A DNA stretch of 52,595 bases from Prochloron sp. SulCav_FS08_3_32_3330 (GTDB lineage Bacteria; Cyanobacteriota; Cyanobacteriia; Cyanobacteriales; DYNF01), in contig DYNF01000022.1 in the NCBI GenBank assembly GCA_020721205.1, positions 1-52,595 on the forward strand, in the 5' to 3' direction. The notes beneath the pieces were generated by a model, which was not told where the DNA came from, did not search any database, and saw nothing but the letters and a program-made list of their open reading frames with translations. This document shows positions 1 to 30,100 of the stretch, piece after piece; position 1 is the first letter of the stretch; the number at the start of each line of letters is the position of its first letter. The translations under genes were made by a program, and so were the position numbers.

Positions 1-350
1 GGGGGTTAGGGGGTGAGGGCTAACAATTTTCCCCCGAGAATGAAAACGCCCTGCCCCGGTAGGAGGGCTGAAGCCCAACTACGAACTTTTTTATCTATGA
101 CAATATTTATGACCTCCTACTTACTGATTTTTGATCCTAATTATAATAACTATTCACTGGTCACTAAAAAACTGTTTACGAATAAAGGTATTTTTACTTA
201 TTGACAACTTTATAGCTATATAGTTATATTAAGTTATGCAACAAAATTTAAGTTTTCTTTAAAAGATAGTAATATTAAATTATGCAATAAATTTAAAGGA
301 TTCTTAAACGTGTTGTAATTCCCGCACAGGCGACGAAAAGGAGTTTAGAT
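1..350. other. Intergenic left edge and leader of the hdr cluster
   Basis: No convincing gene. A G-rich stretch at the very start is followed by a perfect short palindrome, GGGCTGAAGCCC, at 65-76; this looks like part of a cyanobacterial interspersed repeat. A short open frame at 13-204 has repeat-like composition and no recognisable protein. The AT-rich part (205-330) holds an imperfect direct repeat described separately and should contain the hdr promoter. A clear ribosome binding site AAGGAG lies at 338-343, seven bases before the hdrC1 ATG. Confidence 0.6.
226..296. promoter_or_regulatory. Imperfect direct repeat upstream of hdrC1, possible operator
   Basis: Two copies of a roughly 26-base element, at 226-251 and 272-296, share the core ATATTAA(G/A)TTATGCAA. 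Their starts are 46 bases apart, about 55 and 100 bases before the hdrC1 start. Direct repeats at near-integral helical spacing in front of an operon are typical of regulator binding, but no known regulator site is recognised. The repeat itself is seen; the regulatory role is inference. Confidence 0.3.
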
Positions 351-1052
351 ATGGGTAAATTATTTGATGAATTGGCACAGGACATTAATTATCAGCATGG
401 GATGAATGCTTGTCTCAATTGCGGAATTTGTACGGCGGTTTGTCCAGCCGCCGAGGTTTATGATTATTCTCCTAGAGAGGTCATGAACTTAGTCCAAACT
501 GAGGATGATGAGTTAATTGAAGATTTATTAAAATCTGACAAAATTTGGTTTTGTGGACAGTGTTTTTCCTGTAAAACACGCTGTCCGAGAGGTAATAGCG
601 CCGCTTCGGTGATTTTAGCTTTACGTCGTCTTTCTGTCCGTCATGGTTTCTTTGCTGAGTCGGAAAAAGGCAGACAACAATTATTTGCTAAACGAGTGTT
701 TGGCGAAAATATGTTAAAAAGAGGTTATACCCTCACTGCTGAAAATATTACTCCTGAACATTTCCCCGAATTAGGAGAAAATTGGGAATATTATTTTGAA
801 CACATGGCAGAAATGCGTGAATGGTGGGGTGTCCCCATGGACTTGGAAAATAGCCCCGGCTCTCATCGCCGTATTCCTGAGAAAGATATGGATGAGTTAC
901 GCGCTATTTATGAGAAAACTGGGGCGATCGAACTCATGCAAGCAGTAGAAAAAGGCATGGAGAAAAAATTGGGCAGTAAAGCCGAAGTGGAAAAATTCTG
1001 GGATAATTGGGTTGAAACGGCGGATAGTCGTACTTATAAAATGAAAGATTAA
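351..1052 (+). CDS. hdrC1: sHdr-like heterodisulfide reductase subunit C1 (2x[4Fe-4S])
   Basis: A 233-residue iron-sulfur electron-transfer subunit. Two classical cubane motifs are complete: CLNCGICTAVCP near residues 21-32 and CGQCFSCKTRCPRG near 68-81. HdrC passes electrons between the flavin subunit HdrA and the catalytic subunit HdrB. No membrane segment or signal peptide is visible, so a cytoplasmic complex is expected. The C-terminal half is acidic and tryptophan-rich, as in the longer HdrC1 type of sHdr clusters. It is the first gene of a five-gene set and has a strong AAGGAG site. The family call is firm; the electron donor and acceptor are unknown. Confidence 0.88.
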   Translation: MGKLFDELAQDINYQHGMNACLNCGICTAVCPAAEVYDYSPREVMNLVQTEDDELIEDLLKSDKIWFCGQCFSCKTRCPRGNSAASVILALRRLSVRHGFFAESEKGRQQLFAKRVFGENMLKRGYTLTAENITPEHFPELGENWEYYFEHMAEMREWWGVPMDLENSPGSHRRIPEKDMDELRAIYEKTGAIELMQAVEKGMEKKLGSKAEVEKFWDNWVETADSRTYKMKD

Positions 1053-1128
1053 GCCTAATTTTTCGCTTTTAACACTTAAAATTTACATTAATAATAAACT
1101 TTATTTAACAAAAAAGGATACTAAAATC

Positions 1129-2175
1129 ATGAACAAAACAGGTAAATTAGACGCATGGGAAAGACATCAAAAAGAAATTCCTACTGTAGATGATCCGGGT
1201 GGTAAGTTATGGGGCTGTTTCCGTAGTTGTTTTTTACAAGCCGCCGCTCCTTATACTGAGGGTGTTGCTTATAAAATTTTAAAAAATAATTTAGGAATGG
1301 ATTTAAGAGAAGCGGCAGGTCATACTTCCTGCGGTGCGATCGGCTATCACGGCGATGTAACTAACTTAGAAACTCAAATGGTAGTAGCGGCTCGTAATTT
1401 CTCTGTGGCACACGAGGAGTTAGGGGTAGATCATTTATTCTCTTTCTGTGTTACTTCTTTTGCTAATTATACTGAGGTTATTAAGCTTTGGGAAGAAGAA
1501 CCGGAATTACGGGAATATACAGCGAAAACTCTGAAAGAAACTACAGGACGAGATTTTTGGGTGCCTCATGTTTCTGGTGGTCGTCCTTCTGTAGTTCATG
1601 CTTCTGATGTATTTTTTGCTAACCGTCATAAATTAGCGGCACAAGCTAAATACAGCCTGAAAGGGATTAAAGGGGTAGATCATATTGGTTGTCATTATGG
1701 TAAAATTTTCCCTGAAGAATGTGTGGGTGGTGCTGAATTTCCTCAAGTATTAGTAGGATTATTAGAGGCTTTCGGAGCAGACGTGGTAGATTATCCTGAA
1801 AGAAGACACTGTTGTGGCATGGGTTTTCGTCAATGTGCTTTCCCTGAAAACCGTGATTATACCGCTAGTTCAGTCTATAAAAAGATGAAAAGTTTAAAAG
1901 AAGCTCATCCTGATTGTAAGTTAATTATTACTAATTGTCCGGGTTGTACTGTCTTTTTAGATGCTGAACAAGGAGCTATTACAGAGGTTTTAGAGGAAGA
2001 ATTTGGAGTAAGCGTACTAGATTATGCTCAATTAACTGGTTTAATGTTAGGTTATGATCCTTTTAAAGATTGTGGTTTAAATGCGAAAGCAGTAGCGATC
2101 GAGCCTTTATTAGACATGATCGGCATTCCTTATGACAAAACTAAAACTTTTGAAGAACGGAGAAGACCATTTTAA
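1129..2175 (+). CDS. hdrB1: sHdr-like heterodisulfide reductase subunit B1 (CCG domain)
   Basis: A 348-residue HdrB-type protein. HdrB subunits carry CCG domains (C-X~35-CC-X~35-CXXC) that bind non-cubane [4Fe-4S] clusters and form the thiol/disulfide active site. Here the C-terminal domain is complete (CHYGK, HCCGMGF, NCPGC). The N-terminal domain is degenerate: C30 and C34 are present, but the CC pair is S67-C68 and the last CXXC is C107-xx-S110. At most one standard cluster is therefore predicted. It starts at an ATG with AAAGGA upstream, 76 bases after hdrC1. The order C1-B1-A-C2-B2 is the basis for the B1 designation. Confidence 0.85.
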   Translation: MNKTGKLDAWERHQKEIPTVDDPGGKLWGCFRSCFLQAAAPYTEGVAYKILKNNLGMDLREAAGHTSCGAIGYHGDVTNLETQMVVAARNFSVAHEELGVDHLFSFCVTSFANYTEVIKLWEEEPELREYTAKTLKETTGRDFWVPHVSGGRPSVVHASDVFFANRHKLAAQAKYSLKGIKGVDHIGCHYGKIFPEECVGGAEFPQVLVGLLEAFGADVVDYPERRHCCGMGFRQCAFPENRDYTASSVYKKMKSLKEAHPDCKLIITNCPGCTVFLDAEQGAITEVLEEEFGVSVLDYAQLTGLMLGYDPFKDCGLNAKAVAIEPLLDMIGIPYDKTKTFEERRRPF

Positions 2176-2205
2176 CAAAAATTCAAAATTTTTAAATATT
2201 CTTGA

Positions 2206-2261
2206 GTTCGTTGTTGGGCTTTAGCACCATATTTTAATCGCACTAAAGTGCAACAACAAAC
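2206..2261. repeat. REP-like inverted repeat, copy 1 (hdrB1-hdrA gap)
   Basis: A hairpin with arms starting GTTCGTTGTTGGGCTTTAG and ending CTAAAGTGCAACAACAAAC. The arms pair over about 20 bases with a few mismatches and an AT-rich loop. A very similar element lies at 4177-4225 and a half copy at 32682-32706. It could attenuate transcription between hdr genes or stabilise upstream mRNA; neither is shown by sequence alone. Confidence 0.8.
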
Positions 2262-2317
2262 CTAGATTTATTAAACACTAATGATCAATAAACATTAAAA
2301 TTAAAGGATTAAAAAAA

Positions 2318-3379
2318 ATGACAAATAAAGTAGTAGTAATTGGGGGTGGAGTTTCTGGAATGGCGGCTTGTTCCCAATTAAGAAATTTCGGTTATGATGT
2401 GGATTTAATTGAAAAGGCAAAGGATTTAGGAGGTCATGTAAAAAACTGGTATAAAGTGTTTCCAGATTTTGCTGATGCTACGGAAATTCTGGATAAATTA
2501 AAGGGAGATTTAAACGGAACAAGAGTTTTAACTAATACTACTGTTACTAAAATTGAAGGGGAAGCTCCTCATTTTGTTGTTACTACTTCTGATGATGAAA
2601 TAATTACCGCTAAGGCTGTTTTAGTTAGTACAGGTTTTCATCATTTTGATGCAACTTTTAAAGAAGAATATGGCTACAATATCTATGATAATGTGATAAC
2701 TTCGGTGGAATTAGATGCCATGTTAAAAGCTCAAAAAGTCAGAATGGTATCTGGTGATAAACCGAAAAAAATAGCGATGATTCATTGTGTGGGATCAAGA
2801 GATGAGAAGGTTAATAATAATTATTGTTCCAGAGTTTGTTGTACTAATGCGGTGAAAGTGGCGATTGAAATTAAAGAGCAAATCAAGGATTGTGAAATCT
2901 ATTGTCTGTATATGGATATCCGAGTTTTCGGACGTGGTTATGAGGAACTTTACCGCACTTCTCAAGAGGATTATAATGTGCAGTTTATCCGAGGACGACT
3001 TTCTGAGGCTAGTGAAAGACCGGATAAGTCCCTCTTATTACGGGTTGAAGATACTTTAATCAGTAAACCGATGCGTTTAGGGGTGGATCTGTTGGTCTTA
3101 ATGGTAGGAATGGAAGGGAATAATGATTTAGCTGAAATTGCTAATTTGGAATCTGGATGCGATCACTTCTATAGCACTGCCAATCAACAATATTCTAATA
3201 ATTATTCTAAACATGATGGAATTTTCTTAGCCGGGACTGCAACAGGACCAAAAGCGATCATGGAAAGCATTACCGACGGGCGATCGGCGGCGGCAGAAAT
3301 TGCTGGTTTTTTATCAAAAAAATCTTTTAATGATCTGAATAAAACTAATGCTGAGAAAAAAATTCCTAGTTTAGTTTAA
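2318..3379 (+). CDS. hdrA: sHdr-like heterodisulfide reductase subunit A (FAD, [4Fe-4S])
   Basis: A 353-residue flavoprotein. The Rossmann motif GGGVSGMAACSQL begins near residue 9, followed by the HdrA-type cluster motif CVGSRDE...YCSRVCC near residues 155-173 and a C-terminal FAD-contacting segment DGIFLAGTATGPK. It lacks the extra ferredoxin and thioredoxin-reductase-like domains of methanogen HdrA (about 650 residues). This length matches the compact HdrA of sHdr sulfur-oxidation complexes. It would be the electron-entry or exit flavin subunit bridging the two HdrB-HdrC pairs. It starts at an ATG after TAAAGGA; a repeat hairpin lies in the gap before it. Confidence 0.87.
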   Translation: MTNKVVVIGGGVSGMAACSQLRNFGYDVDLIEKAKDLGGHVKNWYKVFPDFADATEILDKLKGDLNGTRVLTNTTVTKIEGEAPHFVVTTSDDEIITAKAVLVSTGFHHFDATFKEEYGYNIYDNVITSVELDAMLKAQKVRMVSGDKPKKIAMIHCVGSRDEKVNNNYCSRVCCTNAVKVAIEIKEQIKDCEIYCLYMDIRVFGRGYEELYRTSQEDYNVQFIRGRLSEASERPDKSLLLRVEDTLISKPMRLGVDLLVLMVGMEGNNDLAEIANLESGCDHFYSTANQQYSNNYSKHDGIFLAGTATGPKAIMESITDGRSAAAEIAGFLSKKSFNDLNKTNAEKKIPSLV

Positions 3380-3550
3380 TGATTAATTAATCAAGAAAAA
3401 ATGAATATTGTAATTAAATGTAAAGAATGCCAAAAATGATTAAATGGTAATTTTTTTTATGAATCTAAAGCATTGCCCACCTTACAATATTTAAAAACCC
3501 AGATTTTTTATTTTAATAAACCTTTAACTTCGACAGAAAGGAATAAAATT

Positions 3551-4174
3551 ATGCCCACTAAAGCAGAAAAAACTACAGCTAGAAAAAAAAGACTAAAATC
3601 TTTTTTTAGTATTGACAGAGATCGTCAGGTTGATGGAGATACGATTAACAATAAATTGCTCAATGAAATAGTAGCAGAAGGAGGTGCAAGTGCTTCCATT
3701 GCGGCTTGTATGCAGTGCGGTAGTTGTACCGGAGGCTGTCCTAATGCGGATAAAATGGATATTCCACCCCGAAGTTTAATTTTAATGATTCAACGGGGCG
3801 AATGGGATAAGGTATTACAAAGTAAGACTTTATGGCTTTGTAGTAGCTGTTATACCTGTACTTCTCGTTGTCCGAGAGGGGTTAAACCTTCTGATGTGAT
3901 TGAAGCGGCTAAAGCTTTAGCGATTCGGGAAGGAATTAAAAATGATTCGGTTAAATTTAACACAATTTTTGTTGATTTAATTAAGGAAAGAGGCATTCTT
4001 TTTGAACCTGAATTAATGTATAAATACGGTGGTTTAAAAGAAGTTATTGATCAAGCACCTTTAGGGATTAAATTAACATTAACTGGTAAAATGTCGCCTT
4101 TTCCTGAAAAAGTTAAAGACCCTAAATCTTTTAAAAAGGCTTTAGAAAAAATTGAAAAAGTTTCCAAAAAATAA
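3551..4174 (+). CDS. hdrC2: sHdr-like heterodisulfide reductase subunit C2 (2x[4Fe-4S])
   Basis: A 207-residue iron-sulfur subunit with two complete cubane motifs, CMQCGSCTGGCP and CSSCYTCTSRCPRG. The ATG at 3551 is chosen because it follows AGAAAGGA at a good distance. An in-frame TTG at 3473 lies inside a copied repeat (GCCCACCTTACAAT, also at 23278-23291), so the longer form is unlikely. The N-terminus is lysine/arginine-rich. In sHdr clusters of sulfur oxidisers a small extra gene usually sits between hdrA and this gene; here the 171-base gap has no room for it. Confidence 0.87.
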   Translation: MPTKAEKTTARKKRLKSFFSIDRDRQVDGDTINNKLLNEIVAEGGASASIAACMQCGSCTGGCPNADKMDIPPRSLILMIQRGEWDKVLQSKTLWLCSSCYTCTSRCPRGVKPSDVIEAAKALAIREGIKNDSVKFNTIFVDLIKERGILFEPELMYKYGGLKEVIDQAPLGIKLTLTGKMSPFPEKVKDPKSFKKALEKIEKVSKK

Positions 4175-4176
4175 AG

Positions 4177-4225
4177 GTTCGTTGTTGTGCTTTAGTGCTA
4201 ATAGTGCTAAAGCACAACAACAAAC
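4177..4225. repeat. REP-like inverted repeat, copy 2 (hdrC2-hdrB2 gap)
   Basis: Near-perfect hairpin: left arm GTTCGTTGTTGTGCTTTAG, right arm CTAAAGCACAACAACAAAC, with one mismatch over 19 pairs and an 11-base loop. It starts two bases after the hdrC2 stop codon. Same family as 2206-2261 and 32682-32706. The stem is followed by an A-rich rather than T-rich stretch, so it is not a standard plus-strand terminator. Confidence 0.85.
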
Positions 4226-4271
4226 CAACAACAAACTATTAAATAAAATTACAATAAAAAAGGAAAAAAAA

Positions 4272-5156
4272 ATGAAATATTCTTATTATTCCGGTTGCAG
4301 TCTTCATACCACCGCTAAAGAGTTTAATATCTCTACTCAAGTTATTATGAAAGAGTTAGGAGTAGAGTTAGAAGAATTAAAAGATTGGTCTTGTTGTGGA
4401 GGCTCGATCGCTGGTGGTGTTTCTCATGATATGGGTATGGCTTTAGCCGCAAGAAATGTGGTGTTAGCACAAAATCAAAATTTAGATTTAGTGGCTTCTT
4501 GTTCCGGTTGTTATAATAAGTCAGCTAAAGCGGCTAAAGCTTTAGAAGATCCTAAAGAAAGAGCGAAAATAACTGCTGTTTTAGAAGACATGGGAATGGA
4601 GGTTTCAGATAATAATATTAAAGTGAAAAATATCGTAGATGTTTTAATTAATGATATTGATTATACGGGAAAAATTAAACATCCTTTAACGGGCTTAAAA
4701 GTTGCTTGTTATTATGGTTGCTTAATGACTCGTCCTGATGATATAACAGGGTGGGATTCCCCTCTTTATCCGATGTCTATGGATAAGTTATCAGAAATTT
4801 GTGGCGCTGAAGCGGTGGATTTTCGTGCTAAAACTAAGTGTTGTGGTGGACCTATTTTAGTACATCAAAAAGAGGTAGCTTATGAGTTAACAAAAGCGTT
4901 GTTAGATGAAGCTAAATCTTTAAATGCTGATTGCATTGTTTTAGCTTGTCCTTTGTGTGCTACTAATTTAGAAATCAGACAAAAAGAAATTGAAAAATAC
5001 TATAATGTTTCCTATAATTTACCGATAGTTTATATTACAGAATTAATCGGTTTAGCTTTAGGAATTAGTCCTCAAACATTGGGTATGAATAAGCACGTTT
5101 TATCTGTTAAAGCTGTGATAGATAAAGTTAAAAATAATCCTTTAGTTGCGGCTTAA
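4272..5156 (+). CDS. hdrB2: sHdr-like heterodisulfide reductase subunit B2 (two CCG domains)
   Basis: A 294-residue HdrB subunit with two complete CCG motif sets: C9, SCCGGS and CSGC in the first half, CYYGC, KCCGGP and CPLC in the second. It can therefore hold two non-cubane [4Fe-4S] clusters and is the more likely catalytic thiol/disulfide site of the complex. The ATG at 4272 follows AAAAAAGGA. An upstream in-frame extension to 4152 would overlap hdrC2 and translate the repeat hairpin, so it is rejected. Last gene of the cluster; a bidirectional terminator follows. Confidence 0.87.
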   Translation: MKYSYYSGCSLHTTAKEFNISTQVIMKELGVELEELKDWSCCGGSIAGGVSHDMGMALAARNVVLAQNQNLDLVASCSGCYNKSAKAAKALEDPKERAKITAVLEDMGMEVSDNNIKVKNIVDVLINDIDYTGKIKHPLTGLKVACYYGCLMTRPDDITGWDSPLYPMSMDKLSEICGAEAVDFRAKTKCCGGPILVHQKEVAYELTKALLDEAKSLNADCIVLACPLCATNLEIRQKEIEKYYNVSYNLPIVYITELIGLALGISPQTLGMNKHVLSVKAVIDKVKNNPLVAA

Positions 5157-5179: not shown

Positions 5180-5210
5180 AATCCCCGAATTTTTCAAAAA
5201 TTCGGGGATT
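5180..5210. terminator. Bidirectional intrinsic terminator between hdrB2 and recQ
   Basis: A perfect 15-base inverted repeat, AATCCCCGAATTTTT / AAAAATTCGGGGATT, separated by one base, with T-rich sequence beyond the stem on the plus strand. It lies between two convergent genes and can stop transcription from both sides. Confidence 0.85.
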
Positions 5211-9532: not shown

Positions 9533-12004
9533 ATGCGACTAAAATCAGTTTTTATTCGCTTTTATAAATCATTTAACTATGATTATCTCAAGAAATATCA
9601 AGCTTCAGTAATTCCTAAGCCTTGGGAAATTATTGATAATTTTTGGTATCCTTATATTCAGATCAAAATTGATAATCAAGTAACCACTATTGTGGGGGAA
9701 AATGAATCAGGAAAAACCCATCTTTTAACAGCAATTGAAAAAGCAATTTCAGGAATAGACTATCAAAAAAATACCATAAAACGGGAAGATTTTTGTCGTT
9801 ATTCCCAATTTTTTTATCATAATTTATCTAATATTTTTGAACAAAACTTAAGATATCCTGATTTTGGGACAGAATGGACAAATTTAACAGAAATTGATCA
9901 AAATAACTTAAGATCAATTTCGACTATTACTACAGATATTTATTTTAATCAAGTTTACTTTTTTCGAGAGAATAAAAATAAATTTACTCTTTACTTACAA
10001 TCTGATGTAAATGAATATCTTGCTTATCCGATTAAACCAGAATATGCTACACAACTATTAGAAATTTTCCCTCAAACTTTAAGAATTAACTCAAAAATGA
10101 TCATTCCTGATAGCTTTTCAGTCAAACAATTATTACAACGGATTCCTGAAATTAAAATTAGTGGCTCAAGATACGAATTTATTCACAAAAAACAAAGAGC
10201 AAAAGTAAGAGAATCTTTAGATGAAATTTACAATTTTCCTGAAACTTTTAAACGTCCACCTTCCACTTTTAGAGAAACTAATCATAGTTTTGATTATACG
10301 ATAGAATCTCTCATTGATGCCCTGAGAGATTATGGTCAAAATTATCAAGAAATTGAACAAGAAAACCAAGAATTAGATTTAGTTTATAAGCTCATTTGTC
10401 AAGTAGCTAAAGTAGATCCAAGCCTTTTAGTGGACTTAGCTAACTCCATGATTACGGAAAAAATAGGTTATACAAATGGACTGATTGAAATTATTAATAA
10501 AAAGATTGCCCATAGTTTAAACTTTGCTTATTGGTGGGGACAAGATCAAGAATTTCAACTACTTTTATCGCCAAGGGATCATGACTTAGTATTTACCATT
10601 AAAGATCGCACAAATACTCAATATTCCTTAGGGGAAAGAAGTAGCGGATTAAAATACTTTTTAAGTTATTATATTCAATATCGTTCTTATCAAGAAGACT
10701 CAAAAAAACCTGAAATTTTATTAATGGATGAACCTGATACTTATTTATCTAGTAAAGCCCAACAAGATTTACTTAAAATATTAGAAGGTTTTACTTATTC
10801 TCCTGATCTAAATGAAGGAATACAAGTAATTTATGTAACTCATTCTCCTTTTTTCATTAATAAAAACTATCCTCAAAGAATTAGGTATTTAGAAAAAGGA
10901 AGGGAAGAAGAAGGTACAATTATTGTTACACAAACTGCTAAAAATTCTTCTGAAATTTTACAATCTTCTTTTGGACAATTTACAGGAGAAATAACTATCT
11001 TTACCCGTTGTAACCTGATTGTCAATAGTTTAGCTGAAAAAGTTTTATTAGGGGGAATTTCGACTTATTTACATCAAATTTTTGTGTCAGAAAGGGAAAA
11101 ATTAGACCTCAATCACATTAATATTATTCCTGTGGGAAATATTAGTTATTTACCTTCTTTACTTACTCTCAATGATCACAATAATATTGAGCCTCCTGCT
11201 GTAATTATTTTATTAAATACTGATGAATATAGTGAGAAAATTAAACAAGATTTAATCAGTTTAAATAAAGATCAAAAAATATCTTTTGATCCCCAATTTA
11301 TTTTGTCAATAGAAGCAGTAAAAAATCAAGAAAATGTTATTTTCTTAAATTTAGGAAAATTAACAGAACTTGAAGATATGATCCCCTTGACAATTGCGGT
11401 AAAATCTGCTAAATTTTGGCTAGTTAATTATGGAGGATTAAATCAATCTATTGCCAATAAATTAACCGAAAATTTAGTTAGTCAACAAATGAATCAAAAT
11501 TTAACACTTTTTAAAAGTATTCAAACTTGTATTAAAATAATTACTCATGATCAAATAATCATAGATCGTCTAGGTTTTAATCGTAGTGTTGTGGATTTAA
11601 TTAATCAACAGACAGAAGTTAAAAGTTCAAATAAAACCAAAATATTTAGCCTTAAATTAAAAGAATTAGAGCATAATTTTAAAATTTTATTCTCGGAAAT
11701 TAATCAAAAGAAAAGAGATGCACAAAATCTTAATCAACAGGAAAAACTTACTCAAAAAATTAGTAGAATTAAACAAAGTTTTATTAAAGATTATCCTTTA
11801 ACAGCAACAAAAGAAGCGGGTTTAATTTTATTAGAAAATATTGAAAAAGTTTTAGAAACTAATAACAAAGAAACTAAAATAAAATCAATGATTGAACATC
11901 TAAAAAAACAATATCAACTTAATCAAAATTTAACTCAACTGATTCAAAATTATGAACAATTTAAAGAAGACTTAAATAAAATAAAATATGCTAAAATAAT
12001 TTAA
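9533..12004 (+). CDS. OLD-like ABC-type ATPase with degenerate Toprim region
   Basis: An 823-residue AAA/ABC-type ATPase of the kind found in overcoming-lysogenisation-defect (OLD) nucleases. Walker A GENESGKT is near residues 55-62, an ABC-like signature RSSGLKYFLSYY near 370, Walker B ILLMDEPDTYL near 396-406, and the switch histidine in VTHSPFF near 435. After it, where OLD proteins have a Toprim nuclease, only echoes remain: IVNSLAEKVLLGG (glutamate kept, VEG lost) and VILLNTDEYSE in place of the acidic DxD. The last 150 residues are coiled-coil-like. OLD proteins are known phage-defence factors. The nuclease may be inactive or highly divergent. Followed by recG after a heptamer array. 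Confidence 0.65.
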   Translation: MRLKSVFIRFYKSFNYDYLKKYQASVIPKPWEIIDNFWYPYIQIKIDNQVTTIVGENESGKTHLLTAIEKAISGIDYQKNTIKREDFCRYSQFFYHNLSNIFEQNLRYPDFGTEWTNLTEIDQNNLRSISTITTDIYFNQVYFFRENKNKFTLYLQSDVNEYLAYPIKPEYATQLLEIFPQTLRINSKMIIPDSFSVKQLLQRIPEIKISGSRYEFIHKKQRAKVRESLDEIYNFPETFKRPPSTFRETNHSFDYTIESLIDALRDYGQNYQEIEQENQELDLVYKLICQVAKVDPSLLVDLANSMITEKIGYTNGLIEIINKKIAHSLNFAYWWGQDQEFQLLLSPRDHDLVFTIKDRTNTQYSLGERSSGLKYFLSYYIQYRSYQEDSKKPEILLMDEPDTYLSSKAQQDLLKILEGFTYSPDLNEGIQVIYVTHSPFFINKNYPQRIRYLEKGREEEGTIIVTQTAKNSSEILQSSFGQFTGEITIFTRCNLIVNSLAEKVLLGGISTYLHQIFVSEREKLDLNHINIIPVGNISYLPSLLTLNDHNNIEPPAVIILLNTDEYSEKIKQDLISLNKDQKISFDPQFILSIEAVKNQENVIFLNLGKLTELEDMIPLTIAVKSAKFWLVNYGGLNQSIANKLTENLVSQQMNQNLTLFKSIQTCIKIITHDQIIIDRLGFNRSVVDLINQQTEVKSSNKTKIFSLKLKELEHNFKILFSEINQKKRDAQNLNQQEKLTQKISRIKQSFIKDYPLTATKEAGLILLENIEKVLETNNKETKIKSMIEHLKKQYQLNQNLTQLIQNYEQFKEDLNKIKYAKII

Positions 12005-15359: not shown

Positions 15360-15695
15360 ATGATTAAATTATATGCTGATGAGCAATTTCTTTTAGCAGT
15401 TGTTAAACTGTTACGAGAAATGAATTATGATATTATTAGAGTGCAAGATGTAGGAAAAGCCGGATTAAAAATTCCTGATTTAGAAGTTTTACAATTTGCA
15501 ACTACAGAAAATCGGGCTATTTTAACTCTCAATCGTACTGATTTTATCAAATTACATTATAACTATCCTAATCATGCCGGAATTATTATTTGTCGAGATG
15601 ATCGAAATTGGCAAAGAATGGCAAATAAAATTCATCAAGAAATATCATCTTTTAATAGTTTAACTGGTAAACTGATTAGAATTAATCGTAATTAA
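15360..15695 (+). CDS. DUF5615 PIN-like toxin (pair 1)
   Basis: A 111-residue putative ribonuclease toxin. N-terminal YADEQF and central ILTLNRTDFIKLH hold the conserved acidic residues of the DUF5615/PIN-like fold (Mut7-C related). The RNase role is inferred from the family. Translationally coupled to the DUF433 gene upstream. Its paralogue is at 17499-17843, sharing the RMANKI(H/N)QEI and TGKL/QGKL segments. Confidence 0.82.
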   Translation: MIKLYADEQFLLAVVKLLREMNYDIIRVQDVGKAGLKIPDLEVLQFATTENRAILTLNRTDFIKLHYNYPNHAGIIICRDDRNWQRMANKIHQEISSFNSLTGKLIRINRN

Positions 15696-17498: not shown

Positions 17499-17843
17499 AT
17501 GGCTTTTTTATATGCAGATGAGCAATTTCCCCGCCGAGTTGTGGAGTTTCTTCGTATTTTAAATCATGATGTTTTAACAGTGCAAGAAGCGAGAAATATG
17601 GGATTACCAGATGAAGATGTTTTAGCATTTGCTATTAGTAAAAAACGTGCCGTTTTAACATTAAATCGTCGTGATTTTTACCGTTTACATCGTTTAAATT
17701 CCCAGCATTTTGGGATTATTGCTTGTGTAGATGATCAAGACAGAAATAGAATGGCAAATAAGATCAATCAAGAGATAATTGAAACTCAAAATTTACAAGG
17801 AAAACTGCTTAGAGTCTACCGAGAAAAACCACCTAATATTTAA
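17499..17843 (+). CDS. DUF5615 PIN-like toxin (pair 2)
   Basis: A 114-residue paralogue of the toxin at 15360-15695. Conserved YADEQFPRRVVEFLR at the N-terminus and VLTLNRRDFYRLH in the middle carry the acidic residues expected for the PIN-like nuclease. Starts three bases after the DUF433 stop. Convergent with the small minus-strand gene that follows. Confidence 0.83.
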   Translation: MAFLYADEQFPRRVVEFLRILNHDVLTVQEARNMGLPDEDVLAFAISKKRAVLTLNRRDFYRLHRLNSQHFGIIACVDDQDRNRMANKINQEIIETQNLQGKLLRVYREKPPNI

Positions 17844-19629: not shown

Positions 19630-20979
19630 ATGCGAATTAAACAAATTTCTGTTAAGGGATTATTCGGAATATTTGATCATGTAATTCCTTTAAATACCGA
19701 TGATAGAATTACTATTATTCATGCTCCAAACGGTTTTGGAAAAACAGTAATCATGACAATGCTTAATGGATTTTTTAATTCTCAGTATTCAATCTTAATC
19801 AATACTCCTTTTAAGGAATTTAATATTGAGTTTGATAACAAAAGTAGTATGGAGATTAAAAAAGATATTAATAAAGCAAATATTAATTTTACATTTAATG
19901 AAAATAACTCAACTCTTAAAACTTTTATTTTAAAGGAAAAAATATTAGAAACAAAAATAAATTTTTCAGTTAATCAATTAGATAATATTATACCCAGTAT
20001 TAAACAAATAGATTCTAACAAATGGTTAGATATTTTGACAGATGAAATTTTATCTTTAGAAGAAGTATTAGAGCGTTTTAATCATTTATTCCCACAACAT
20101 ATTAATACTTTATACTCTATCAAAGAACCTGATTGGTTAATAGATATTAAAAATAATATTAATATTCGCTTAATAGAATCTCAAAGATTATTAAATTTTA
20201 CTACAACTAGATCATCAATACGTTATGATAAATCATCATCAATGATACCCACTGTTATAGCATATTCTCAAGAATTAGCTAAATTAATGCTGGATAAATT
20301 TAAAGAATATGGTAGTATTTCTCAATCTCTTGATCGTAGTTTTCCAGCAAGAGTTGTACAATATAATTTATCAGAAATGACAGAAGAAAAACTCCGTGAA
20401 CAATTAAATAAACTGGAAACAAATCGTTTACGTTTAATTGAAGTTGGTTTATTAGATCAAGATGAAAATTCAGATTTTCAAATACAAACTCAAACTATTG
20501 ATGAAAGCACTAAAAATATATTATCTTTATATATTCAAGATGTGGAAAAAAAACTTGATGTTTTTAATGATATTGCTGATAAAATAGAATTATTTAGAGA
20601 CATTATTAATAATAAATTTTCCTATTCCTATAAACAAATTAATTTTAATAAAGACAAAGGATTTATTTTTACAACTGGTCATAATATTAAATCAAAATCA
20701 GCAGAAATAAAAACTCTTTCTCCTAATGATTTATCTTCTGGTGAGCAACATGAATTAGTATTACTTTATGAATTATTATTTAAAGTTAAACCTAATTCTT
20801 TAGTCTTAATTGATGAGCCTGAATTATCGCTTCATGTGGGATGGCAAGTCAATTTTATCAAGGATTTACAAAATATTATCAAATTAGCAGATTTAGATAT
20901 TTTAGTGGCTACTCATTCACCTGATATTATTCAAGATCGTTGGGATTTAACTGTTGAATTAAAAGGAGTAGAAAATTGA
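19630..20979 (+). CDS. AAA/ABC ATPase, AriA-like (PARIS-type defence)
   Basis: A 449-residue ATPase with Walker A HAPNGFGKT (31-39), signature LSSGEQHELVLLYELL near 375, Walker B LVLIDEPELSLH near 391-403, and switch histidine VATHSPDII. It overlaps by four bases a DUF4435 Toprim gene. An AAA ATPase followed by a DUF4435 Toprim nuclease is the composition of the PARIS abortive-infection system (AriA-AriB), in which the ATPase scaffold senses phage anti-restriction proteins and releases the nuclease. Which trigger applies here cannot be read from sequence. Other AAA+DUF4435 families exist, so the PARIS label is tentative. Confidence 0.72.
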   Translation: MRIKQISVKGLFGIFDHVIPLNTDDRITIIHAPNGFGKTVIMTMLNGFFNSQYSILINTPFKEFNIEFDNKSSMEIKKDINKANINFTFNENNSTLKTFILKEKILETKINFSVNQLDNIIPSIKQIDSNKWLDILTDEILSLEEVLERFNHLFPQHINTLYSIKEPDWLIDIKNNINIRLIESQRLLNFTTTRSSIRYDKSSSMIPTVIAYSQELAKLMLDKFKEYGSISQSLDRSFPARVVQYNLSEMTEEKLREQLNKLETNRLRLIEVGLLDQDENSDFQIQTQTIDESTKNILSLYIQDVEKKLDVFNDIADKIELFRDIINNKFSYSYKQINFNKDKGFIFTTGHNIKSKSAEIKTLSPNDLSSGEQHELVLLYELLFKVKPNSLVLIDEPELSLHVGWQVNFIKDLQNIIKLADLDILVATHSPDIIQDRWDLTVELKGVEN

Positions 20980-21830
20980 GAGATTTATTAACTGTTGAGC
21001 GTATTGCTAATACTATTAGAATGCAAAAAAGCACATTTCAAGATGTTTTTTTATTAGTAGAGGGTGATTCTGATAAAAAAGTTTATGAACGTTTTGTTGA
21101 ACAATTAAATTGTCGTCTCGAAATTTGTAAAGGAAAACCATCTAGTAAAGAGCGTGTAATTTCAGTTTTAAATATTCTTAATCAGTCCAATTTTTCAGGT
21201 ATTATCGGAATTATTGATGCTGATTTTGATCGTCTGGAAAATATCAAATATAACAATCTTAATTTATTTTTGACAGATACTCATGATCTGGAAACAATGT
21301 TAATTAAATCTCCTGCTTTTGATAAAATAATTGCTGAATTTGGCTCAGAAGAAAAACTTAAAAAGTTTAATCAAGATTTAAGAGAAATATTACTTGAATC
21401 AGGAAAAATAATTGGTTATTTGCGATGGATTTCTAAAGAAGAAAAATTAAACCTTACTTTTCAGAATATAAAATTTAGCAAATTTATTAATGAAAAAAAT
21501 TTAACAATTGATCAAAAAGAATTAATCAAAGAAGTAAAAAATAAATCTCAATATTTTTCGATTAAAGATGATGAATTTCAGCAAAAATTAGATCATAAAA
21601 TAAGTTCAAACAATGATCTTTGGCAAGTTTGTTGTGGTCATGATTTAGTTAATATATTAGCTATTGCGTTATGTAAAGTTATTGGTAATAATAATACTAA
21701 TGATGTAAAATCAGAAATTATTGAGCGCAGTTTAAGATTAGCTTATGAAGAAAATTATTTTTTGCAGACTAATCTTTATCATAATCTAAAAATGTGGGAA
21801 AATAATAATCAAAAGTTTTTAAATTATTAA
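20976..21830 (+). CDS. DUF4435 Toprim-like nuclease, AriB-like (PARIS-type defence)
   Basis: A 284-residue protein starting at TTG (20976), supported by AGGAG at 20964-20968 and by overlap with the ATPase stop codon. The Toprim core is intact: LLVEGDSDKKVY with E29, IIDADFD with D81 and D83, then TDTHDLETMLIKS. In PARIS the AriB nuclease cleaves host tRNA when freed from AriA. The unusual start codon and tight overlap suggest strong translational coupling, fitting a toxic subunit kept below the level of its ATPase. Family call good; exact system assignment moderate. Confidence 0.72.
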   Translation: MRDLLTVERIANTIRMQKSTFQDVFLLVEGDSDKKVYERFVEQLNCRLEICKGKPSSKERVISVLNILNQSNFSGIIGIIDADFDRLENIKYNNLNLFLTDTHDLETMLIKSPAFDKIIAEFGSEEKLKKFNQDLREILLESGKIIGYLRWISKEEKLNLTFQNIKFSKFINEKNLTIDQKELIKEVKNKSQYFSIKDDEFQQKLDHKISSNNDLWQVCCGHDLVNILAIALCKVIGNNNTNDVKSEIIERSLRLAYEENYFLQTNLYHNLKMWENNNQKFLNY

Positions 21831-24065: not shown

Positions 24066-24178
24066 AAGGTAAGGAACGGATTTAAGTTAAACAGCTTAGA
24101 GCTAGTTAATAAACGAAAATCCAGCAATAATCATCACTGAGATGACAAATAAACATTATTAAGTTGATAAGACGATCA

Positions 24179-27100
24179 ATGATAGGGAACTTTGCTACTT
24201 TTGTAGATTTATTACGGGATAGAACAGCTTTACAACCTGATAAAATCGCTTTTTCTTTTCTCAATGATGGGGAAATGATCAGCGACCGCCTTACTTACGC
24301 TCAACTACAACAACAAGCGATGGCGATCGCCTCGAAGTTACAAGCTTGGAATGGGAAAGGGGAAAGAGCATTATTATTGTATCAACCCGGCTTAGAGTTT
24401 ATTGCCGCTTTTTTCGGTTGCTTATATGCTGGAGTGATTGCTGTACCCGCTTATCCACCTAGAGCAAACCGTTCCCTTGACAGGCTTGTGGCGATTGTAG
24501 AAGATGCTCAAGCAAAATTTGCCTTAACTACCGCATCGGTAATCGTCAATATTAAAACTCGTTTTGATGAACAAATTAATCATCAAAGTAATACGGGCAT
24601 CTTGCCTGTTAAAAATAAGATTGAATTTATTGCTACTGATATTATTAATCCTGATCTAGCCTCAAATTGGCTAGATCCTAACATAAATTCAGATAATCTC
24701 GCTTTTATCCAATATACCAGTGGCTCAACGGGTATTCCCAAGGGCGTGATGGTGACTCATAATAATTTATTACATAATTCCCATTTAATTAATAATTTCT
24801 TTCAAGATAACTCCGAAACGATTGGTTTTTCATGGCTTCCTCCCTATCACGATATGGGCTTAATTGGCGGTATTTTACAGCCTCTTTATGCTAATGTGAA
24901 ATCTATGTTATTGATGTCCCCTGTCACGTTTTTACAGCGTCCTTACCGTTGGTTACAGGGGATTTCTAACTATGGGGTGACTACTTCCGGCGCACCTAAC
25001 TTCGCTTATGATCTTTGTGTTAATCAAATTAGTGAAGAACAAAGAAGCACTTTAAATTTAAGTAGTTGGACTTTAGCTTTTAGTGGGGCAGAGCCAGTGA
25101 GAGCAGAAACTTTACAGCGATTTTACCAAACTTTTGCTGATTGGGGTTTAAAAAAAGAGGCATTTTATCCTTGTTATGGCATGGCAGAAACTACTTTAAT
25201 TGTTTCTGGGGGTAATAAATGGGCTTTTCCTGTGCAAAAAATTGTGAATACTAAAGCTTTAGAAAAACATCAAGTTATTACTGTTCCGGTTAAAGATGAT
25301 CATAATACAATTTTAGTTAGTTCTGGTCGTGTTGCTGATGATGAAAAGATAATTATTGTTAATACTGATACTTTTACCCTCTGTAAAGAAGATGAAATCG
25401 GTGAAATTTGGGTACAAAGTGCGAGTGTGGCTCAAGGTTACTGGAATAAATTAGAGCAATCTGAGGCTATTTTTAAAGCGAGGATTGAGAGTTTGGAAGG
25501 AGAAACCTTTTTACGCACAGGAGATTTAGGCTTTTTACAAGGGGGAGAATTATTTGTAACAGGAAGATTAAAAGATTTAATTATTATTAGGGGAAGAAAC
25601 CATTATCCTCAAGATATAGAATTGACGATTGATCAGGCTCATCCTGCTGTGAGACAAGGGGCAGGGGCGGCAGTTTCGATTGAGATGAATGGAGAAGAAA
25701 GACTGGTAATTATTCAAGAAATTCAAAGAAGTTATGTCAGAAAATTAAATGTAGAGGAAGTAACAAAAGCGATTCGTCAAGCAATTGTGGAAAATCATGA
25801 GTTATTACCTTATGCAATTTTATTGTTAAAAACTGGTACTATTCCCAAAACTTCTAGCGGAAAAATTAAACGTCACGCCTGTAAAGAAGGCTTTATTGAT
25901 GGCAGTTTAACTGTTATTGGTGAATGGAAAGAATCACAGAAAAGAATCACAGAAAATAATCAAAGTAAATCAAAGTCTTATCAAATAATCACAGAAAATA
26001 ATCAAAGTAAATCAAAGTCTAATCAAATAATCACAGTGGAAAATTATATCATTGAGAAAATCGCCGATCGCTTAGGGGTATCAGTAACAGAAATTGATGC
26101 TTATGAGCCTTTTGCTAGTTATGGTTTAGATTCGGTACAAGCCGTAAGATTATCAGCCGAGTTAGAAGACTGGTTAAAAGTCAAGATATCGCCTACGATA
26201 CTTTATGATTACCCAAATATTAACACACTTTCACAGTATCTACAAAAAATTCAAAATTCAAAATTCAAAATTCAAAATTTTTCACAAGCAATAGAAAATG
26301 ATCATAATAAGATCATACCCCTAAAAATAGCTAATGAAGAAATAGCAATTATCGGAATGGGATGCCGTTTTCCGGGAGCTAAAAATCCTCAAGAATTTTG
26401 GCAATTATTAACAGAAGGAAAAGACGCTATCACATCAGTAAAAACTCGTTGGAATGGGGAAGGCTTCGGAGGTTTCATTGACAATGTAGATCAATTTGAT
26501 CCTCAATTTTTTGGTATTTCCCCAAGAGAAACTCAACGGATGGATCCTCAACAAAGATTACTCTTAGAAGTAAGTTGGGAGGCTTTTGAATATGGCGGGA
26601 TTAAAGTTGATCAATTAGCCGGAAGTAATACGGGTGTATTTATGGGGATGAGTAGCAGTGATTATTCTCAGCTACAGTTACATTATGGCTTAAAAGTGGA
26701 CGCTTACGCAGGGACAGGCAACGCCCACAGTATCGCCGCTAATCGTCTTTCTTATATTTTTGATTTTAAAGGTCCCTCCCTCACGATTGATACGGCTTGT
26801 TCATCTTCCCTTGTGGCGGTACATTTAGCGTTACAGAGTTTACAAAAAGGGGAATGTGATCAGGCTTTAGTCGGTGGAGTTAATTTAATGTTAAGTCCAG
26901 AATTAACTGATACTTTTGCCCAAGCGGGAATGTTGAGTCTCGACGGTAAATGTAAGACTTTTGACGCTTCGGCTGATGGTTATGTGCGAGGCGAGGGTTG
27001 TGGTATAATTGTACTAAAACGGTTATCGGATGCTCAAAAAGATGGTAATTTAATTTTAGGTTTAATTAAAGGTAGTGCGATTAATCAAGATGGGCGTAGT

Positions 27101-30100
27101 AACGGTTTAACAGCCCCTAACGGGATCGCCCAACAGGAAGTGATCCGTCAAGCTTTAATTAATGCCTGTGTTAATCCTCGTGATCTTAATTATATTGAAG
27201 CTCATGGCACGGGGACATCTTTAGGAGATCCGATCGAGATTAATTCTTTGATTGAAGTATTAGGAGAAAATAGAGAGCAAAATAATATTTGTTATATTGG
27301 CTCAGTTAAAACAAATATTGGTCATTTAGAAGCGGCGGCGGGGATGGCAGGATTAATTAAAACTATTTTATCTTTATATTATCGTCAAATTCCCCCTCAT
27401 TTGAATTTCTCTACATTGAATCCTTTAATCAATTTAGAAAATACTCGTTTTGCGATTCCTACTAATCTTAAATCTTGGAAAAATCAAGAGCAAATTTTAG
27501 CAGGAGTTAGCTCCTTCGGTTTTGGTGGTACAAATGCACATATTATAATTCAAAATTCAAAATTCAAAATTCAAAATTCAGAAGTAAATTTTAATTCCCG
27601 TAACACAGGCAGATTGCCTGTAACTAAAGATAGACCTTTACATATCTTAAATTTATCAGCAAAAACCGAATCTGCATTAAAAGATTTAGTTAAGAATTAT
27701 GACAATTACTTGACAAATAATCCAGAAGTTGAGTTAAAAGATTTATGTTTTAGTGCGAATACAACGAGGGTACAATTTAATCATCGTTTGACGATTGTTA
27801 CTGATTCAAAAAATCATTTAAAAGAGCAGTTTAAAATATTTTTAGAAGGGAAGAAAACCCCAGAAATATTACACGGTAAAGTGAAAAAAGGACGAGATCA
27901 AAAAATTGCTTTTCTGTTTACAGGGCAGGGATCTCAATCTGTAAAAATGGGATTTCAATTGTATGAAACTTCCCCTATTTTTCGAGAAAGTTTTAATCAA
28001 TGTGCAGAAATTTTAACTAATTATTTAGACGTTTCTTTAATTGATGTTTTATATTCAGAAAATAAAGAAATTAATCAACTTTTAGATCAAACAGCATACA
28101 CTCAACCTGCTTTATTTGCTTTAGAATATTCCTTAGCTCAATTGTGGATGTCTTGGGGTATAATTCCCACTGTGGTAATGGGGCATAGTGTGGGGGAATA
28201 TGTAGCCGCTTGTATTGCCGGAGTTTTCAGTTTAGAAGATGGTTTAAAATTGATTGCTAAACGGGGAAAATTAATGCAATCTTTACCTCAAAATGGGAGT
28301 ATGGTGGCAATTTTTGCTGATAAAAAGATAGTCGAAAAAATTGTAGAAACCGATCATAATACTTCTTTACAAAAAGTATCTATTGCCGCTTATAATGGCT
28401 CTCATATTGTCGTGTCAGGAGAAACAGAAGCGATCGAAAAAATTGCTTTATCTTTTGAAAATCAAGAGGTGAAAGTTAAGCGTTTAAATGTATCCTCAGC
28501 TTTTCATTCGCCTTTAATGTTACCAATGATTAAAGAGTTTGAAAAAGTAGTTAAAGAAATTAATTTTTATCTCCCTAAAATTGATCTAGTTTCTAATGTA
28601 ACAGGGGATTTTATTACAGAAGAAATTACGACGATTAACTATTGGTTAGATCATATTTTAAAACCAGTACATTTTGAATCTAGTATTGAGAAATTAAACG
28701 ATGCAGAATATAAAATATTTTTAGAAATTGGGGCTAAAGCAACATTATTAGGAATAACTTCTTCAGTTATCAGTTACCAGTTACCAGTTACCAATAATAA
28801 CAACAAGATTAGAGTAGAAGATAATAATTGTCAATTTATTCCTAGTTTAAGAAATATTGACCAAGATTGGCTTACTATTTTAGAAAGTTTGGCTAAACTT
28901 TCGGTGAGAGGGATCAAGATTGATTGGGAAAATTTTGACGCTCCTTATCCCTGTCAAAAAGTTATTTTACCTACCTATCCTTTCCAACGTCAAAGATATT
29001 GGTTAAAGGATATTATTCCTGTTTCTTCTAGTTTAATGTCTCCTGTTTTAGACTTAGAAGAAATCCAGTCTAGTGAGGATTGGTTTTATCAAGTAAAATG
29101 GCTAGAAAAAGAAGGTCATTTTGTTAGTAATAAACCGAATAATATTAAACAATGGATCATTTTTGCTGATCAAACGGGCATAGCTGAAAAAGTTGCTAAT
29201 GTGTTAATTAATAAGGGTAATTCTTGTTTATTTATTAACTATCAAACAGAAAATAAAAGTAATATTACTATTAATAAACTAGAAGATTATAGTTTAATTT
29301 TCAAAAATTCTAGTCTGGATCTAAGTCAAGAAATAGGTATTTTACATTTATGGAGTTTAGATAGTAAATCTAATGATGATCTGACTATTTCTGACTTAGA
29401 AACTGCTCAAAAATTAGGTTGTCAAAGTGTGTTATTTTTATTACAAGAATTGATCAAATATCCGGTTAAAGCGAAAATTTGGTTAACGACTCAAAATAGT
29501 CAAATACAATTCAAAAATCAAAATTCAAAATCTAAAAATAATTTAGCTTTTTCTCAAACTCCTTTATGGGGAATGGGTAAAGTTTTATCTTTTGAGCATC
29601 CTGAATATTTTGGTGGTTTAATTGATCTTAGTAGTAATATTAATGATCATGAAATTGAAAATTTAGTTAATAAAATTACTCACCATGATCCCGAAACAGA
29701 AATTATTTTAAGAGACAATAAAATTTATGGCTCTCGTCTTACTCAAATAAAAGATCAAAGTAGCACAAGCAAGATGCCTGTGTCAAACTCAGCAAGTTAT
29801 TTGATCACAGGAGGCTTAGGCTCTTTAGGTTTAAAAATTGCTCAAACTTTAGTGGAAAATGGGGCAAAAACTTTAATTTTAGTTGGGCGAAATAAACAAA
29901 AAAATGAGGCTGTTAAAGTAATACAAGAATTACAAAATCAAGGCGTTAAAATTGTAGTAAGTCAAACGGATATTACTAATAGTAAAGAGTTAGAAACTTT
30001 ATTCAAACAAATTAACGAAACTTTGCCACCTTTAAAGGGAATTATTCACAGTGCAGGGGTGTTAAATGATAATGTTTTAATTAGTCAAAATTGGGAACAA

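Follow-up and report, generated by a model that had tools for sequence, protein, structure and literature searches.

The 52,595-nucleotide stretch of DNA analyzed here (the window) is an entire contig of the cyanobacterium Prochloron sp. SulCav_FS08_3_32_3330 (DYNF01000022.1; G000:C34, 1-52595). It carries five consecutive genes, hdrC1-hdrB1-hdrA-hdrC2-hdrB2 (351-5156), which are related to those of the sulfur-oxidizing heterodisulfide reductase-like (sHdr) complex; genes upstream of hdrC1 lie outside view. Our analyses lean, by a little more than an even chance, toward a cluster encoding a sister of sHdr that is independent of the lipoate-binding protein LbpA and that would oxidize sulfane sulfur derived from sulfide:quinone oxidoreductase (SQR) to sulfite without O2. 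This reading builds on direct observations of gene content and gene order, the ancestry of HdrC1 and HdrB1, the absence of LbpA, and both linkage to and co-occurrence with SQR.

All five open reading frames are intact and co-directional on the forward strand, and family profile scans assign them in order to HdrC, HdrB, HdrA, HdrC, and HdrB, in agreement with a preliminary description of this DNA, although every protein scores below the cut-offs of the methanogen equivalogues. HdrC1 (351-1052, 233 aa) and HdrC2 (3551-4174, 207 aa) are electron-transfer subunits, and the two intact cubane motifs first reported in each are indeed complete CxxCxxCxxxC motifs for [4Fe-4S] clusters (CLNCGICTAVCP and CGQCFSCKTRCP in HdrC1), which are retained across the 12 cyanobacterial and 7 sHdr sequences compared. 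HdrA (2318-3379, 353 aa), the FAD/Fe-S subunit, is as compact as initially described: it keeps the FAD fold, has no ferredoxin domains, and aligns end to end with the 349-aa 6tjr chain, which we take to be the sHdrA of Hyphomicrobium, but only partly with the longer methanogen HdrA; its C157, C170, C174, and C175 are conserved with sHdrA. HdrB1 (1129-2175, 348 aa), the proposed catalytic subunit, combines a degenerate N-terminal CCG motif with a complete C-terminal one (C188, CC228-229, C270, and C273), and HdrB2 (4272-5156, 294 aa) has two complete CCG motifs, sites of non-cubane [4Fe-4S] clusters, both conserved between the cyanobacterial and sHdr proteins. Comparison with homologues points to ATG 3551, not TTG 3473, as the most likely start of hdrC2; for hdrB2, the most likely start is ATG 4272. 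In a comparison with one close homologue (G075), hdrA, hdrC2, and hdrB2 have dN/dS values of about 0.08-0.14, with dS saturated for hdrC1 and hdrB1, and, as judged from the sequences, the coding regions of the cluster are under purifying selection.

The C1-B1-A-C2-B2 order, the compact HdrA with its conserved cysteines, the full set of cubane motifs, and several signatures of B1 are all shared with the type I sHdr-LbpA systems of Hyphomicrobium, Thioalkalivibrio, and Acidithiobacillus. For example, TSC...YHG, TSFxNY(T/K)E, and CCGxGFR are common to cyanobacterial B1 and sHdrB1 but do not occur in methanogen HdrB, and both groups have lost cysteines of the N-terminal CCG motif. On the other hand, the C-terminal motif reads NCPGC (its Cys being C270) in all 12 cyanobacterial B1 sequences and DTGC in six of six sHdrB1, and the N-terminal extension of sHdrB1 is absent from the aligned cyanobacterial proteins. 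The sHdr comparison loci were four proteobacterial ones among the 15 loci listed from a pattern scan of genome contigs, and the sHdr rows in the trees were proteobacterial only, with archaeal, Aquificota, and type II sHdr left out. In this sample, B1 joined sHdrB1 (support 100/99) and C1 joined sHdrC1 (99/97), in each case as sister clades on long branches, which supports a shared ancestry of these two cyanobacterial proteins with their sHdr counterparts. In contrast, B2 grouped with sHdrB2 with a support of only 76/18, the C2 tree gave no resolved placement relative to sHdr, and a single clade of HdrA with sHdrA was neither supported nor excluded (approximately unbiased (AU) test, p 0.315). 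The cyanobacterial proteins form a clade of their own that is not nested inside the sampled sHdr. A grouping of the cyanobacterial B1 with B2, as an internal duplication would give, was rejected by the AU test (p 0.00016).

Across 386 cyanobacterial genomes sampled over the phylum, an HdrA homologue with 67-76% identity was found in 13 (3.4%), all from one order but spread patchily over several families. LbpA is described as essential to sHdr and as almost always encoded with it (PMC6067878, PMC10332631), and it has two strictly conserved cysteines that are not found in GcvH (PMC6067878). A genome-wide PF01597 search returned one full-length GcvH in each of the 13 carriers and no LbpA-type paralogue in any of them, the two further matches being fragments of 35-39 positions, whereas each of the four proteobacterial sHdr genomes examined yielded at least two full-domain GcvH-like copies in the same search. 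Thioalkalivibrio has two such copies, with four and five cysteines, on its sHdr contig within a few kb of hdrA. The earlier suggestion that the substrate carrier may differ is thus supported in the window genome and the 12 other carriers. The gene that separates hdrA from hdrC2 in sHdr loci is likewise absent from the window and from 11 other intact loci, as had been noticed for the window, although it is not the small gene it was taken for, since it encodes about 290 aa (e.g. L049 8997-9875). Of the sulfur-transfer proteins, TusA, named early on as a possible partner, is present in the window genome as in all 13 carriers; DsrE, on the other hand, occurs in the window genome, in three copies, and in one other carrier and is absent from the remaining 11 of 13. 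The anatomy of the cluster and the ancestry of C1 and B1 therefore mark it as a relative of sHdr, whereas the absence of LbpA, of the ~290-aa gene (hyp), and usually of DsrE sets it apart from the sHdr-LbpA system, identity with which is rejected by the genome-wide LbpA test. The sHdr kinship put forward in the preliminary description thus holds for architecture and for C1 and B1 but not for full membership. A separate observation concerns the Acidithiobacillus ferrooxidans plasmid pACF1, on which a lone HdrB-like CCG protein (L046 3150-4490) is encoded without other hdr subunits, near a GcvH-like gene, two hemerythrin-domain genes, and a DUF2249 gene.

The proposed cytoplasmic role in sulfur metabolism gains support from SQR, which ties the cluster strongly to sulfide. 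All 13 carriers encode SQR, compared with 55 of 373 non-carriers (Fisher p 6e-11, uncorrected for relatedness), and in 8 of the 12 loci read besides the window, SQR lies within 10 kb of the cluster. Five of these neighbors are type II (mitochondrial-like) and three are type I, a typing based on an alignment of the eight and on two matches in the PDB: a type I neighbor is 3hyv/3kpk-like and the type II SQR of the window genome itself is 6mo6-like. The latter is encoded on a separate 4.3-kb contig (C32), which shares with the window only a 21-bp repeat, located at the SQR-distal end of C32, and adjacency of the two contigs is not claimed. Other neighbors, each in single or few loci, include a persulfide-dioxygenase-like protein, rhodaneses, a TauE exporter, a sulfate permease, a Rieske PetC paralogue, a DUF4405 membrane protein, and an ArsR-type regulator (G148). 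The cytochrome b6f Rieske (PetC) gene was seen near Hdr or SQR genes at L025 4360-4893, L022 16181-16741, L026 2349-2882, and L156 9372-9863, and its recurrence possibly reflects a link to plastoquinol oxidation. The linkage to SQR points to sulfane sulfur as the substrate.

Eleven of these 12 loci contain all five genes in the same order, with the qualification that in G154 a DUF2202 gene is inserted between C1 and B1, and the hdrC2 and hdrB2 reading frames overlap in at least 8 of the 11. G154 also has a second, solitary hdrB1 (L022 322-1392) about 6.5 kb past the cluster, 84.7% identical to B1 of the window. In the remaining locus, G126, an internal deletion removes hdrC2 and fuses hdrA in frame to the C-terminal part of hdrB2 (L029 9572-10756), making this copy either a decaying or a misassembled cluster. 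In Picosynechococcus PCC 7003 the cluster resides on a 253-kb plasmid typed as mobilizable, where it is flanked on one side by sqr, 5 bp past the end of hdrB2, and on the other by a cation:proton antiporter gene. Strains PCC 7002, 7117, 73109, and 8807 share the antiporter and sqr with PCC 7003, but the cluster is absent. Base-level inspection of PCC 7002 (plasmid pAQ7) and PCC 7117 revealed that homology sets in again some 200 bp short of the hdrB2 end, leaving a decayed tail directly before sqr, which in PCC 7002 is a pseudogene with a frameshift and a stop (L156 6037-6240). The ancestors of PCC 7002 and PCC 7117 therefore had at least hdrB2 beside sqr and lost it. PCC 7003, which carries the cluster, and PCC 7002, which keeps the remnant only, form a natural pair in which the function of the cluster can be tested.

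For the reaction, its direction, the carrier, and the electron acceptor, we infer the following scheme. Membrane-bound SQR would oxidize sulfide and pass the electrons to plastoquinone, leaving sulfane sulfur as polysulfide, which would then be held as persulfides on glutathione, rhodanese, or TusA. A soluble complex of C1-B1-A plus C2-B2 would take up the persulfide sulfur at HdrB1 and oxidize it to sulfite in the cytoplasm, with HdrC1, HdrC2, and their Fe-S clusters delivering the electrons to the FAD of HdrA and on to NAD(P)+ or ferredoxin. The sulfite could combine with further sulfane sulfur to give thiosulfate. The persulfide dioxygenase reaction needs O2, and the complex would be its O2-free counterpart. 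It would draw on the same substrate stream as the SQR and persulfide dioxygenase of Synechococcus PCC 7002, which convert sulfide to sulfite and thiosulfate (PMC7042703), with SQR adjoining the hdr cluster and PCC 7002 itself retaining its hdrB2 remnant before sqr; unlike the O2-using dioxygenase, the Hdr-like complex would need no O2. Several points weigh against this proposal. Sulfur oxidation by the sHdr of Hyphomicrobium requires LbpA (PMC6067878), for which no candidate was found in the carriers, and DsrE is missing from most carriers as well. The active sites of the two B1 groups would also differ, given C270 in the cyanobacterial protein and Asp in sHdrB1. In the window genome SQR is on another contig, so that the linkage rests on relatives; the cluster is dispensable, since four of five Picosynechococcus strains lack it; and a persulfide dioxygenase homologue is encoded in all 13 carriers (the count was made in carriers only), with which the Hdr-like complex would be redundant under O2.

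The absence of LbpA, a protein tied to the oxidative pathway, also lends itself to the opposite direction of catalysis, in which electrons from ferredoxin or NAD(P)H would reduce disulfides, glutathione persulfide, or polysulfide under sulfide stress and so protect the thiol pool. Reduced ferredoxin is ample in phototrophs, and the complete CCG motifs of HdrB2 and of the B1 C terminus resemble those of methanogen HdrB, which reduces heterodisulfides. However, C1 and B1 are closest to subunits of the oxidative sHdr, B1 and sHdrB1 both have a degenerate N-terminal CCG motif, and the inspected loci show no recurring ferredoxin or NAD(P)H module, so a reductive role seems unlikely, at perhaps one chance in five. 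It is less probable still that the carriers run the full sHdr pathway with their only GcvH, the housekeeping one, doubling as lipoate carrier. Every carrier does have a GcvH, which contains one to three cysteines in a few of those read, but the GcvH of the window genome has none, no GcvH match occurs in the inspected cluster loci, and the cysteine pair of LbpA is, as noted above, foreign to GcvH. In addition, LbpA was unable to replace GcvH in Bacillus subtilis (PMC6067878).

A quite improbable alternative, though one with precedent in the literature, is an electron-bifurcating or methanogenesis-type Hdr. Genes annotated as hdrA2, hdrB2, and hdrC2 have been noted together with a type II sqr in Phormidium pseudopriestleyi and read as possible bifurcation (PMC8002359). 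The earlier statement that such a cluster has no characterized function in cyanobacteria agrees with the literature found, although hdr genes as such had been noticed before. For the Lake Fryxell mats, a bifurcation reading has likewise been offered, and hdrB, which tracks psbA and rbcL, was ascribed to sulfate reducers (PMC7153904). The retained FAD fold of HdrA is compatible with bifurcation, and the cluster shares with the HdrABC of methanogens and sulfate reducers the subunit families and the two complete CCG motifs of HdrB2. However, HdrA has 353 aa compared with 640-780 aa for HdrA with ferredoxin domains, the B and C subunits are doubled, the N-terminal motif of B1 differs from that of HdrB, and no Flox, Mvh, or Frh partner, hydrogenase, or formate dehydrogenase was seen in the 12 loci; a simple HdrABC was rejected on the size of HdrA and the absence of partners. 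The tracking of psbA and rbcL also speaks against a methanogenesis-type Hdr and fits a cyanobacterial rather than a sulfate-reducer origin; the cluster described here suggests that the Lake Fryxell hdrB signal is cyanobacterial, and by inference the Phormidium and Fryxell genes would belong to this same cluster. Least credible is a horizontally acquired relic in decay that no longer has a function, which the patchy distribution, the scar in PCC 7002 and PCC 7117, and the G126 deletion might evoke, but which sits poorly with five intact genes in the window and 11 other loci, retained Fe-S cysteines in C1, C2, A, and B2, B1 identities of 82-89% across cyanobacterial families, and low dN/dS.

Several further features accompany the cluster. 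The best sigma-70-like promoter match upstream of hdrC1 is TTGACA-18-TATATT (201-230, forward strand), in a region where such sites are no commoner than expected by chance (18 found compared with 18.4 expected). A palindromic repeat (4176-4226) lies between hdrC2 and hdrB2, with a related half-copy (2235-2262) between hdrB1 and hdrA, and hdrB2 is followed on the forward strand by a strong intrinsic terminator-like hairpin with a 14-bp stem and a T-rich tail (5180-5210). Elsewhere in the window, an AAA ATPase gene followed by one for a DUF4435 protein with an AriB match of 93.8 bits (19630-21830) looks like an anti-phage defense pair of the PARIS (AriA-AriB) type, and an 823-aa AAA_15/OLD-like ATPase (9533-12004) shows weak similarity to Gabija GajA and to AriA and lacks an obvious partner gene. 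Two DUF5615 (PIN-like toxin) genes (15360-15695 and 17499-17843) lie about 2 kb apart. A 2834-aa polyketide synthase (24164-32668) appears, from its translation only, to resemble olefin synthases for terminal alkenes, with acyl-AMP ligase, acyl carrier protein (ACP), ketosynthase, acyltransferase, ketoreductase, second ACP, sulfotransferase, and thioesterase domains.

From a metabolic point of view, thiosulfate formation from sulfide is known in some marine cyanobacteria: Sodalinema stali converts sulfide to thiosulfate (PMC12694226), and the title of a 1995 study by Rabenstein, cited in PMC7784965, names sulfite as an intermediate of anaerobic sulfide oxidation to thiosulfate in these organisms. 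With the O2 requirement of persulfide dioxygenase, the known source of sulfite in cyanobacteria, such reports call for an O2-independent enzyme, for which the cluster is a candidate. A 2026 survey of microbial mats attributed Hdr-LbpA genes to other phyla and only SQR to cyanobacteria (PMC13384644). The conservation of an sHdr-like complex without LbpA in all 13 carriers raises the questions of which carrier serves it and whether its chemistry requires lipoate at all. The broader proposition, to which we would give somewhat less than an even chance, is that oxygenic phototrophs own an O2-independent, lipoate-free Hdr-type enzyme converting SQR-derived persulfide to sulfite, which would represent a second, LbpA-independent way to run sHdr chemistry. 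If true, this enzyme would be the source of the sulfite that arises as an intermediate when cyanobacteria oxidize sulfide to thiosulfate anaerobically.

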